From: Candidatus Kapaibacterium sp.
Lineage (GTDB): Bacteria; Bacteroidota; Ignavibacteria; Kapaibacteriales; UBA2268
Reading direction: 5' to 3'
DNA: 64,000 bases
NCBI GenBank assembly: GCA_028376765.1
Contig: JAONBD010000005.1
Span: 1-64,000 of the forward strand
Below are positions 47,861 to 52,593 of this stretch, piece by piece. A program made the position numbers and the translations under genes. The notes under the pieces were generated by a model that was not told the origin of the DNA, did no database searches, and saw nothing but the letters and a program-made list of their open reading frames with translations. Positions within the stretch are counted from its first letter, which is position 1, and each line of letters starts with the position of its first letter.

Positions 47861-48555
47861 CAAAATACCTATACATATCGATTTTAATCTTTTTAATTAG
47901 TTCGTGCAACATAGCATCAGACTATTTTTATTTGAACAGAAGCTCTATGGAGCAAAAAACTATTACTGCCCAAATTTTGAATAATTGGAGCAAGGTTAAA
48001 CAAATCAACCAAAATTCCTTTTTAATTAAAGGTGGTGGTGCAGTAGCTATAGGGACACAAATTAAACCTATTTCTGTAAAAAAAGAGCCAGGATTTATTA
48101 GTACACTTTTTGGATTAGATGTAGTAAGTAACCGAAGCCGTGACTACAATGGTAATTATATTTATGATTTTGGGATTAAAAAATTATCTGACAGTAGCCC
48201 TTTAAAAATATACAGTAGAACTAGTCCAAATGGATTAGATAATAAAAATCTCGGAATTAACATAGAAGTGACTAATTCAACAATTGCTTTATTTGATGGA
48301 AATGAGTTAATCAATGAAGTAAATTTATCAAAATTCCAGATTGAGGAAACAAAACGAATAATTTTAATAAATAACAACAATTATATTAAAGTTTCTTTGG
48401 ATTGTGACGAAATGTTTAATTATAAAACGAATAGACCAATATCGGAGTATTTAATCTTTGAGTCCGTAGGAAGCGGAGACTGGGAAATAAACGCAGTAAC
48501 CATGGAAAAAAATATTCCAAATGGGATTTTTAAAAATCGAGTAATAATAAAATAA
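47857..48555 (+). CDS. Hypothetical lipoprotein; start extended to a candidate CTG codon
   Basis: In-frame upstream codons encode LTKYLYISILIFLISSC-NIAS (lipoprotein signal with lipobox LISSC); the track TTG start at 47932 would remove it. Confidence 0.6.
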   Translation: MTKYLYISILIFLISSCNIASDYFYLNRSSMEQKTITAQILNNWSKVKQINQNSFLIKGGGAVAIGTQIKPISVKKEPGFISTLFGLDVVSNRSRDYNGNYIYDFGIKKLSDSSPLKIYSRTSPNGLDNKNLGINIEVTNSTIALFDGNELINEVNLSKFQIEETKRIILINNNNYIKVSLDCDEMFNYKTNRPISEYLIFESVGSGDWEINAVTMEKNIPNGIFKNRVIIK

Positions 48556-48606
48556 GTTCTTTGAAATTAGGTAATTACACCTATTGAAAAATTCGAAAAT
48601 AAATAT

Positions 48607-48633
48607 TAAAGTTTATCGGTTTTATACCGATAA
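48607..48633 (+). promoter_or_regulatory. Sigma-28 (FliA) promoter of the flagellin gene
   Basis: TAAAGTTT-N11-ACCGATAA against consensus TAAAGTTT-N11-GCCGATAA. Confidence 0.88.
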
Positions 48634-48664
48634 CTAATTTAGTTTAGGAAACAATAACAAAATT

Positions 48665-48707
48665 GGCAGGATGCCCTCATAAACACATAATAACAATACA
48701 CGGAGGT
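48665..48707 (+). promoter_or_regulatory. Candidate CsrA-binding sites in the flagellin 5' leader
   Basis: GGCA-GGA-TGCC minihairpin (48665-48675) and ATACACGGAGGT overlapping the SD (48696-48707). Confidence 0.5.
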
Positions 48708-48711
48708 TATC

Positions 48712-49671
48712 ATGCCAACAGCAATATCTGGTGGTGGGAGAATACGTACGAACATTCCTGCGATGAATGCGTACAACGCGCTTTTAACGTCTGGCAACAA
48801 GATTGCCAATAGCCAGTTGAGATTATCAACAGGTAAAAGAATCAACTCAGCAGCCGATGATGTTTCGGGTTACATTACTTCGAGAAACTTATCTGCAAGA
48901 AATTCAGCGTTAAAAGCTGCTTTGAACTCAGTTGGTGATGCGAAAAATGTAACAGCAATCACTAATGATGCACTTGACAATATCGGAAATTTGTTAATTC
49001 AAATTAAAGAATCTGCAAGTATTGCTTCTTCTGGAGCAATGGGAACTGACGAAAAAGTTGCCTTAGCAAAAAGTGCTTTCAGACTTTCTGAACAAATTCA
49101 ATTTATAACTGATTCAACAGTATTTGGTGGCGAGCAATTATTACAGGGAAGTTACTCTGGTGATTGGACTATCGGTTACTATGCAAATGAAGATTTGTTA
49201 GAAATTGATATAGATTTGACAACAAATAATGCAGATTATAATGTTGAAAGTCAGAACTTTAACTTGAACGCAACAAGTGCTGCTTTAGCTTCTGCTGGTG
49301 GAAACACAGATATTTTTGCAGGTGTTACTGGTCTAAATTTACAGGCCTTGGACAGTGTAGCTGCTGATGATCTTGGTATCTTTGGCGAAACACAAGTTAA
49401 AACTACAATTACATCATTAGCAGCAGCTATTGATAATGTATCGAATGTAGCGGCTTATTTAGGTGGGATACAAGTTCGTTTAGACTCTCAAAACGACTTG
49501 TTAAATTCACAAATTACTAATTACTCTGCAGCAATCTCTAGAATTGAAGATGCTGATGTTGCTCAAGAGCAATTGAGTTTAGTTAAGAACCAGTTCTTGC
49601 AACAGGCTTCTACTATCTCTTTAGCTCAAGCAAACCAAACTCCAAGTCAGTTCCTTCAACTATTCGGTTAA
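48712..49671 (+). CDS. fliC: Flagellin
   Basis: N-terminal LRLSTGKRINSAADDVSGYITSRNL; C-terminal RIEDADVAQEQLSLVKNQFLQQASTISLAQANQTPSQFLQLFG. Confidence 0.95.
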   Translation: MPTAISGGGRIRTNIPAMNAYNALLTSGNKIANSQLRLSTGKRINSAADDVSGYITSRNLSARNSALKAALNSVGDAKNVTAITNDALDNIGNLLIQIKESASIASSGAMGTDEKVALAKSAFRLSEQIQFITDSTVFGGEQLLQGSYSGDWTIGYYANEDLLEIDIDLTTNNADYNVESQNFNLNATSAALASAGGNTDIFAGVTGLNLQALDSVAADDLGIFGETQVKTTITSLAAAIDNVSNVAAYLGGIQVRLDSQNDLLNSQITNYSAAISRIEDADVAQEQLSLVKNQFLQQASTISLAQANQTPSQFLQLFG

Positions 49672-49728
49672 TAGTTAAAGAATTTGGCAGGATTTTAGCT
49701 GCAAAGAATAATAAAGTATTACCTATAA

Positions 49729-49765
49729 GACAGCTCATTAAAATATTTTTTGGGCTGTCCTTTTG
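49729..49765 (+). terminator. Terminator-like hairpin between flagellin and fliS
   Basis: GACAGCTC-N15-GGGCTGTC followed by CTTTT. Confidence 0.6.
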
Positions 49766-49788
49766 TAAAACTAAAACGGGAAAATACT

Positions 49789-50145
49789 ATGTCTCATGCA
49801 GCTAAACAATTAGCAGCAACTAAAGCTTACGGTGGATCTGGTAAGAATGGCAAACTTCCTTCATACATAGAACAAGAAGTGATGTCATGGAGCAAAGAGA
49901 AAATTATTCTCAAAATGTATGATCTTTTTATTGTAAGCTGTAAAAGAAAAGATGTCAATAAAATGGGTAAAGTACTCATCGAATTGATGGGATCTCTAAA
50001 CTTCGATTATGGCGATATGTCGACAAGGTTATACCGATTATATGAATATTGTCAAAGATGCATATTTCAAAGAAAGTTTGATGAAGCACTTCATATAATC
50101 AAAGAATTAAGAGATACATGGTCTCAAACATTCGAATTGGAATAA
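49789..50145 (+). CDS. fliS: Flagellar export chaperone FliS
   Basis: KIILKMYDLFIVSCKRKDVNKMGKVLIELMGSLNFDYGDMSTRLYRLYEYCQRCIF; start corrected from TTG 49750 to ATG. Confidence 0.8.
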   Translation: MSHAAKQLAATKAYGGSGKNGKLPSYIEQEVMSWSKEKIILKMYDLFIVSCKRKDVNKMGKVLIELMGSLNFDYGDMSTRLYRLYEYCQRCIFQRKFDEALHIIKELRDTWSQTFELE

Positions 50146-50185: not shown

Positions 50186-51595
50186 ATGGCAGATATTTTT
50201 AGCACAGGTGGAACTGGGAATCAATTAGATAGTCTAATTGAAACTTATCGTTCTACTTTTGATGATCAAAAAAATAGACTTCTTAGTGAGAAATCTAATT
50301 TGGAGAGAAGTTCATCATATTTTAATGCTTTAAATGGTCGTTTAAATGGTATAATTTCTCAGCTTGATGGTTTCGAAAGAAGCGATGCTGCTGATAACTT
50401 TACTGTTAAAAAAGTAACATCATCCAATTCTGATTATGTGACTGCAACTGCCAAAGGAAATGCAATTGATGGTTTAAGTACAATAAAAGTAAAACAGCTA
50501 GCAAGAAATGATAGATTGCTTTCCGGACAAATCAAGCCTGATGAAGAATTTGGTTTATCCGGAGAACAAACAATTTCCTTCACTGTTGATGGTGAACAGA
50601 AATCTGTTACTCTCGAGCTAGATGGTACAGAAACCAAAAAAGAAGCATTAACTAAAGTTGTTGAAGCCATAAATGATGCAGAAATAAACATCTCGGCTGG
50701 ATTGTTGAATCAGAGTAGTGATGCTCTTAGATTTTCTTTGCGTGCCGATGATACAGGCGAAAAAAACAAAGTTGATTTTGCAGACAATGCAATTTTTACA
50801 GCTTTAGGTCTCACAAGAGATGCTTTGAATATGGATAACCCCGATGGCGAAAGATTACAGCAAACAGGAAATGAAGCTGGTTTTCAATCAGGTAATTTAA
50901 CTGATTTAAATGCATTGGCTGAAATAAACGGAGTTGACATTTCAAGATCTTCTAATACTTTTGACGATGTATTAACCGATGTTTCATTCAACCTTTTAAA
51001 AGTCCAAGAAGAAGATGAAAGTGAAATAACATTGAATATTGAAGTTAACCCTGATTCAGTTAAAAGTTACCTTCAACCATTTGTTGATTCTTATAACAAC
51101 CTAATAGGTTTCTTAAACTCTGATAGAACTATGTTGCGTTCAGATGCGGCAATTAGTTCATTAAGATTCCAACTAAGAGACACACTTACCCAAAACGTAA
51201 AAGGTTTATCAGAAGATGACCCAGAATACATAAGTAATTTTGGCTTTGGGATTGCAAGCAACGGAACACTATCAATAAATGATACAGAAGCACTAGAAAA
51301 TATTTTAGAATCAGATCCAGATGTTTTGTCTAATTTCTTTTTAGGCGAAGGCGGATTTGTATCAAAAATTAAAAATGTTGTTAATCGTGTAAAAAGTGAA
51401 GATAATGATCTAATTAAAGATAGAACATTGGACTTCTCGCAACGAATAGCAAGACAAGATGATAGAATAGAAACTTTAGAAAGTAGAATAGACAGGCAAG
51501 CGGCGGCTCAGAGAGAGCAATACACTTCGCTGCTATCAACCTATTATGACGCTCAGCAGCAATATTCTTCTTTTAACAGTATAAACAACTTCTAA
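50186..51595 (+). CDS. fliD: Flagellar filament cap protein FliD
   Basis: N-terminal GTGNQLDSLIETYRSTFDDQKNRLLSEKSNLE; LRFSLRADDTGEKN; C-terminal coiled coil and FliD placement after flagellin/fliS. Confidence 0.85.
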   Translation: MADIFSTGGTGNQLDSLIETYRSTFDDQKNRLLSEKSNLERSSSYFNALNGRLNGIISQLDGFERSDAADNFTVKKVTSSNSDYVTATAKGNAIDGLSTIKVKQLARNDRLLSGQIKPDEEFGLSGEQTISFTVDGEQKSVTLELDGTETKKEALTKVVEAINDAEINISAGLLNQSSDALRFSLRADDTGEKNKVDFADNAIFTALGLTRDALNMDNPDGERLQQTGNEAGFQSGNLTDLNALAEINGVDISRSSNTFDDVLTDVSFNLLKVQEEDESEITLNIEVNPDSVKSYLQPFVDSYNNLIGFLNSDRTMLRSDAAISSLRFQLRDTLTQNVKGLSEDDPEYISNFGFGIASNGTLSINDTEALENILESDPDVLSNFFLGEGGFVSKIKNVVNRVKSEDNDLIKDRTLDFSQRIARQDDRIETLESRIDRQAAAQREQYTSLLSTYYDAQQQYSSFNSINNF

Positions 51596-51613: not shown

Positions 51614-51997
51614 ATGATTGAACCAGTTTCAAATTTAGATCAAGCTCGGCAATCAACTTATCTTAGTATGCACAAAGATAAGGAGGTAAAACTTGATACT
51701 AATTCTTTGATTACTGATTTTATTAAAGAAAATCAAATTAAAAAAATTAATGAGTCATCAAAAAAAGTTGACTCAGAAAGTGTTAAAGACTTTGAAAGTA
51801 AGCTAAACGATTTTTTAAAAGAAGAAAATCTTACTTTAGAATTTAAAAAAGATGACGATACACAAAAAATGGTGATGAAGTTAATAGATAATGAAACTGA
51901 TGAGATAATTAAACAATTCCCACCAGAGATTTCTCTGCAAATTGCTAAAATGGTATCATCATTATTAAATAATAATATAACAAGTGCTAAAGTATAA
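51614..51997 (+). CDS. flaG: FlaG-family flagellar protein
   Basis: LNDFLKEENLTLEFKKDDDTQKMVMKLIDNETDEIIKQFPPEISLQIAKMV. Confidence 0.8.
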   Translation: MIEPVSNLDQARQSTYLSMHKDKEVKLDTNSLITDFIKENQIKKINESSKKVDSESVKDFESKLNDFLKEENLTLEFKKDDDTQKMVMKLIDNETDEIIKQFPPEISLQIAKMVSSLLNNNITSAKV

Positions 51998-52003
51998 GTA
52001 GAA

Positions 52004-52336
52004 ATGGACGATATATTAATTGAAATAGAAACAAAGAATTGTGAGATAGAGAGTCTATTAGATAAGGATTACAATTTTTCTTTGGATGATGTGTCGAATA
52101 TCAATAAATTGTACGTTGAAAAAAAAGATTTAATTGAAAAGTTTGTTTCTGAACGAGTTAAAGATCATAATGTAAGTTTAGTTAATTCTAATAAATCTTA
52201 CTGGAAAAATAAATTTGACAAATACTTGAGTAAAGATAAAGAAGTCCTTGATAAATTAGATGAAAAAATCCAATATTTGGCACAGTCATTGAAACAAAAT
52301 CAGGGCAATAAGAAATTATTAATTTATAATAAGTAA
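52004..52336 (+). CDS. Small helical protein, candidate FlgN/FliT-type flagellar chaperone
   Basis: Size, predicted helical heptads and position between flaG and flgM. Confidence 0.4.
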   Translation: MDDILIEIETKNCEIESLLDKDYNFSLDDVSNINKLYVEKKDLIEKFVSERVKDHNVSLVNSNKSYWKNKFDKYLSKDKEVLDKLDEKIQYLAQSLKQNQGNKKLLIYNK

Positions 52337-52341
52337 ATAAA

Positions 52342-52593
52342 ATGAACATAAATTTAGTAAACAAGGGTGCATCTCTTTATACCACTCAAGAGAAAAAAGC
52401 TCAAGAAACAAAGCAAGAAGAAGTTGCTAGTTCTGGTGTACAAAGAGGAGAAGATAAATTGGAACTTTCTAGTCAAGCACAACAACTGTCAAATGTTCAA
52501 CAAAGAATTGAACAAGGCTTTTATGATAGACCAGAAGTATTGAGACAAGTAGCAAGAAGAATCAGTAACGAGATTGATTCTGGCGATTCTTAA
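52342..52593 (+). CDS. flgM: Anti-sigma-28 factor FlgM
   Basis: DKLELSSQAQQLSNVQQRIEQGFYDRPEVLRQVARRI resembles the FlgM C-terminal domain. Confidence 0.75.
   Translation: MNINLVNKGASLYTTQEKKAQETKQEEVASSGVQRGEDKLELSSQAQQLSNVQQRIEQGFYDRPEVLRQVARRISNEIDSGDS

Follow-up and report, generated by a model that had tools for sequence, protein, structure and literature searches.

Candidate CsrA sites in the flagellin leader of a Bacteroidota relative and their probable link to FliW

In Bacillus subtilis, CsrA represses translation of the flagellin gene hag and FliW antagonises this repression (Yakhnin 2007, Mukherjee 2011, reviewed in PMC7652899). The flaA leader of Campylobacter jejuni is likewise under CsrA-FliW control (PMC4894983). 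The high-affinity site of CsrA/RsmE has been defined by the SELEX consensus RUACARGGAUGU and by an ANGGAN hexaloop (PMC7652899). Campylobacter flaA and Bacillus hag are the closest known counterparts of the flagellin leader described here, which very probably belongs to a CsrA-repressed, CsrA-FliW-controlled message, judging from its sites, their conservation and the genes that accompany them.

A flagellin leader with three GGA elements

The window, that is, the whole 64-kb stretch of DNA analysed, is contig C57 of a 111-contig, 1.77 Mb genome (G000) that is 76% complete. Named relatives of its flagellin come from MAGs labelled Bacteroidetes or Ignavibacteriota, and Ignavibacteriota fall in the Bacteroidota/Chlorobiota group. 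This agrees with the preliminary description of the DNA, which had called the host Bacteroidota-like. A sequence check of the window also located every motif string of that description at exactly the position given there. The features of interest are as follows.

48607..48614, + strand: sigma-28 -35 element TAAAGTTT, part of a promoter match unique in the window
48626..48633, + strand: sigma-28 -10 element ACCGATAA, part of the same unique match and kept by relatives
48646..48649, + strand: candidate CsrA site 3, AGGA close to the 5' end as predicted, less well supported than sites 1 and 2
48663..48668, + strand: UUGGCA, 5' arm of the hairpin, able to pair with codons 1-3 (48713-48718), from the MFE fold, family prediction and a permutation test
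48665..48675, + strand: candidate CsrA site 1, minihairpin GGC-AGGAU-GCC, its loop presenting GGA, from family conservation, compensatory stems and class covariation
48696..48707, + strand: candidate CsrA site 2, AUACACGGAGGU, over the Shine-Dalgarno (SD) sequence GGAGGU (48702-48707), from conservation in family and class
48712..49671, + strand: flagellin gene behind the leader (Pfam Flagellin_N, E 6e-20; Flagellin_C, E 7e-19)
49789..50145, + strand: fliS, flagellin chaperone (Pfam FliS)
50186..51595, + strand: fliD, filament cap (Pfam FliD_N, FliD_C)
51614..51997, + strand: flaG (Pfam FlaG)

Downstream of flagellin the gene order is thus fliS, then fliD, then flaG. Two small open reading frames without a Pfam match (52004-52336 and 52342-52593) lie past flaG, at the flgN/flgM position.

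The promoter TAAAGTTT-N11-ACCGATAA (48607-48633) fits the sigma-28 consensus, TAAAG(TTT) - about 11-12 nt - (C)CGATAA, exactly. It has no mismatches and is the sole match in the 64 kb when up to two are allowed (0.44 matches expected). Most leaders of the family show TAAAG...CGATA/CGAAA. These elements predict a transcription start at about 48640, and a start near this position would place all three GGAs inside the RNA.

Site 1, GGCAGGATGCC at 48665-48675, is the only match in the window at one mismatch or fewer. Since 0.62 matches are expected by chance, about one, the weight of the hairpin lies in its conservation and not in its rarity. The preliminary description had it as a 4-bp minihairpin; the hairpin itself stands, but its fourth pair, A-U, is not kept in relatives, which retain only GGC/GCC and the loop AGGAN. 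On its own, this 11-nt stem-loop folds weakly (-3.7 kcal/mol, z -0.37), and this counts against the CsrA reading. A further GGCAGGA past the flagellin stop (49685) was dropped as a candidate, as relatives do not keep it, and no family reached its gathering score in an Rfam search of 48000-50000.

Site 2 agrees with the SELEX consensus at 10 of 12 positions, as originally proposed, and in this respect, as in the hexaloops of class relatives, resembles the CsrA/RsmE site; the window's own hairpin loop, AGGAN, differs from that site in being one base shorter (PMC7652899). Among the 42 open reading frames of at least 150 aa in the window, CANGGANG lies upstream of the start in one, that of flagellin. 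The third AGGA is present where it had been reported. Its counterpart in the family, a GGA preceding that of the hairpin by 14-26 nt, occurs in 61 of 61 leaders, compared with 45 (maximum 53) in dinucleotide shuffles.

This arrangement resembles that of C. jejuni flaA, also a sigma-28 flagellin with two GGA sites, the first in an upstream stem-loop backed by compensatory changes and the second over the ribosome-binding site (PMC4894983). The two leaders differ in the loop (ANGGA in C. jejuni, AGGAN in the window's family) and in the third GGA, which lies in codon 2 in C. jejuni and near the 5' end here (PMC4894983). Furthermore, pairing with the start codon is possible in the window leader. 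B. subtilis hag also has two CsrA sites, one of them over the SD, and a FliW antagonist encoded with csrA (PMC7652899); the window leader differs from it in phylum and in the covarying upstream hairpin.

Conservation of the leader in the family and class

The family survey covered 146 flagellin upstream regions from 50 flagellated genomes, and the flagellins fall into two types. Window-type flagellins, the fliS/fliD-type, have an N-terminus of MPTA, MPSA or similar. Their leaders carry a sigma-28-like promoter, then GGC-AGGAN-GCC mostly 40-48 nt before the start (57-61 nt in some) and ACANGGAGG about 10-15 nt before it. Leaders were sorted by protein N-terminus because sorting on the hairpin itself would be circular. 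Sorted in this way, 60/65 distinct family leaders keep GGC-AGGAN-GCC and 49/65 keep ACANGGAGG, and the five without the hairpin resemble extra or degenerate copies. Compensatory stems, GGTAGGATACC and GACAGGATGTC, were found in two family genomes. In genus g4 (L034, L035, L036, L039), one flagellin copy has GGUGGAGGAGGCACC and the SD region UUUGGGAGGGG in place of the usual sites; the loop of this diverged leader carries two GGAs.

Other families of the class share the layout, with an ANGGAN hexaloop on long, freely varying stems (for example CAAGTAAGGATACTTG, CAAGCAAGGATGCTTG and GAGCAAGGAAGCTC). Among 34 class leaders from csrA-bearing genomes, 27 have a stem of 4 bp or more closing a GGA loop, compared with 0.9 in shuffles, and CANGGANG lies at the SD in 30. 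In a covariation set of 35 class leaders chosen by loop type, double changes occur at all six stem pairs (63 cells vs 18.0 +/- 4.7 in shuffles). The proportion of stem cells that are paired in this set is 85.7%, falling to 41% or less once the partner is slid; a slide by a single position collapses the pairing. A set of 50 distinct leaders chosen by position only agrees in direction, with counts at the six pairs of 37, 42, 37, 26, 33 and 25 against permutation means of 27, 29, 19, 16, 15 and 13. Checked against relatives in this way, the GGA elements prove very strongly conserved, as the proposal of CsrA sites supposed, and the hairpin stem covaries class-wide.

Hairpins at the 5' end can stabilise mRNAs, and GGAGG is itself an SD sequence. 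The GGA elements could on these grounds be merely a strong SD and a stabilising 5' hairpin with no tie to CsrA, a reading that we regard as extremely improbable. Against it, the ANGGAN loop stays constant while every one of the six stem pairs varies, and the ACAN ahead of GGAGG is conserved in flagellin leaders and absent from the other SDs of the window. The occurrence of csrA tracks that of flagellin across genomes. Furthermore, G281, a 99% complete genome of the same order with two flagellins and neither csrA nor fliW, has leaders that lack both elements. It should also be noted that G281 is the sole clean site-less negative control, a point against the CsrA reading.

Flagellins of the second type lie in tandem. 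Sigma-54-like promoters precede 38 of 85 of their leaders (about 1 in shuffles), and a CsrA-like hairpin, CACNNGGAGGTG, covers the SD in 27 of 79 distinct leaders, with the upstream GGA hairpin mostly missing. At a second locus of the window's genome (L176:363-482, G000:C71), the SD of the first flagellin is covered by UACAC-ACGGAG-GUGUA, with a sigma-54-like TTGGCAT...TTG upstream. Flagellin control within one genome may be split between sigma-28 and sigma-54, as these promoter matches suggest.

Across 55 genomes there are 68 occurrences of the motif GGCAGGANGCCC, compared with 4 of the reversed control. A CsrB-like sponge was considered from this motif and rejected, as almost all of the extra matches examined lie within open reading frames. 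Among them, the one match outside flagellin leaders that is clearly intergenic lies in a fliD leader of G316. There a fliD-like gene (L291, G316:C54:36480-36491) has GGCAGGAAGCCC in its own leader and is a possible second CsrA target.

Distribution of csrA and fliW

Across 219 genomes of the class, 72 have both flagellin and csrA, 7 have flagellin only, 3 have csrA only and 137 have neither (Fisher p 2e-45). Nearly all csrA-bearing genomes (74/75) also have fliW. Within the family, csrA was found in 49/55 genomes and fliW in 48/55, and the two are adjacent in 46 of the 47 that have both, as in Bacillus; in Epsilonproteobacteria, by contrast, they lie apart. Both genes are almost confined to flagellated genomes. 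The five family genomes without flagellin (G306, G308, G315, G327 and G338) all lack fliW and four of them lack csrA, a pattern like that of C. jejuni, whose non-flagellated relatives are without csrA and fliW (PMC4894983).

The CsrA proteins of 34 relatives, none of them from G000, have the RNA-contact residues L4, R6 and R44 without variation, and their C-terminus is extended (length 80-111 aa). In G109, a relative from the window's genus, fliW and csrA stand in a block with motB and a response regulator, neighbours that differ from those at B. subtilis hag; by sequence, the FliW of G109 and its CsrA (residues 2-66) match the two chains of entry 5dmb. One family of the window's order has tandem or fused FliW adjoining csrA, with two FliW domains per open frame of about 290-310 aa (G023:C48:2809-3561, G193:C24:46966-47724, G169:C71:17418-18158).

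One genome of the class departs from the association. In G157, which is 99% complete, flagellins have CsrA-type leaders and csrA and fliW were not found, which counts against the CsrA reading. The genes may have been lost recently or have escaped detection, or the sites may serve a different protein.

Neither csrA nor fliW was found in the G000 assembly. The preliminary description had named absence of csrA from the genome as something that would refute CsrA control, and taken literally the assembly lacks it, but the genus has two further genomes and each of them carries csrA and fliW. A counterpart of the G109 motB-fliW-csrA-response-regulator block was looked for in G000 and is missing as a unit. 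The search through csrA neighbours found FlhA on C2 and not the block. There is no motB ortholog in G000, and the best response-regulator match is only 47% identical. The missing pair and its missing neighbours are what would be seen if the species had truly lost csrA and fliW, leaving the leader as a relic that no longer mediates repression. We consider such a loss very unlikely. The assembly, in 111 contigs, leaves 24% of the genome unseen, and among family genomes that are at least 90% complete, every one with a flagellin has csrA or fliW. In addition, the window's leader keeps both of its sites intact, and at the second locus the hairpin across the flagellin SD is intact too. Because of the unseen fraction and the presence of both genes in the other genus members, we read the absence as an assembly gap, and loss of the whole block from view fits the expectation for such a gap. 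The gap probably lies in the assembly and not in the organism.

Possible start-codon pairing and the proposed control of flagellin

The predicted fold of the full leader is a different, long-range one and not the local hairpin, a finding that counts against the CsrA reading. In this MFE fold (-15.8 kcal/mol, z -2.15), the SD and AUG are paired. The leader could accordingly be controlled by RNA alone, with UUGGCA pairing to UGCCAA of codons 1-3 to bury the SD and start, and either GGA conservation secondary or CsrA toggling the fold. We find this explanation unlikely. In 45/57 family leaders the long-range pairing is predicted to dominate (above 0.5). The complementary run is 5.49 and drops to 4.94 on permutation of the start regions (0/2000). 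Arm and start also match one another in relatives, UGAUGGCA with AUGCCAUCA and GUUGGCA with AUGCCAAC. However, these statistics ignore the relatedness of the leaders, and few double changes are seen, a control slid by +3 scoring higher on covariation. Members that start with AUGGCU keep the hairpin and lose the long-range pairing. RNAalifold does not choose the long-range fold, the local hairpin being the only structure that it finds, and the class stems covary locally.

A combination of the two is a tentative and rather doubtful possibility, for which the data are suggestive only. The CsrA hairpin may double as an anti-start element, with a closed fold that buries the SD and AUG alternating with a local hairpin that offers its GGA. 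If true, an RNA switch would be layered on CsrA-FliW control in the family.

For CsrA-FliW control itself, we propose a scheme modelled on Bacillus and Campylobacter, from which CsrA binding, the repression of translation and the partner switch of FliW are inferred. Late in flagellar assembly, sigma-28 RNA polymerase would transcribe the flagellin message. One CsrA dimer would bind the GGA of the upstream minihairpin and that of the SD site, and the bound CsrA would occlude the ribosome and repress flagellin synthesis. Unsecreted flagellin would hold FliW; export of flagellin would free FliW to bind CsrA, lifting the block on flagellin translation. The preliminary suggestion of CsrA-type control of flagellin gains support from site conservation, covariation, the co-occurrence of csrA, fliW and flagellin, the preserved RNA-contact residues of CsrA in relatives, and the lack of both sites and genes in G281.

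In the open literature, nothing was found joining FliW with Ignavibact-, and its papers joining CsrA with Ignavibacteri-, or CsrA and FliW with Bacteroidetes, appear unrelated by title. This is in line with the earlier remark that such control is little described in a Bacteroidota-like lineage. On the open literature covered, we provisionally call CsrA control of flagellin in this Bacteroidota relative undescribed so far.

Compensatory stems together with the co-loss of genes and sites are evidence as strong as sequence can give, and the leader RNA and the CsrA of relatives form a defined pair for a direct binding test. The locus would extend the flagellin-FliW-CsrA homeostasis loop into the FCB group, on its Ignavibacteriota side, and it lends support to flagellin control, not carbon storage, as the widespread role of CsrA.
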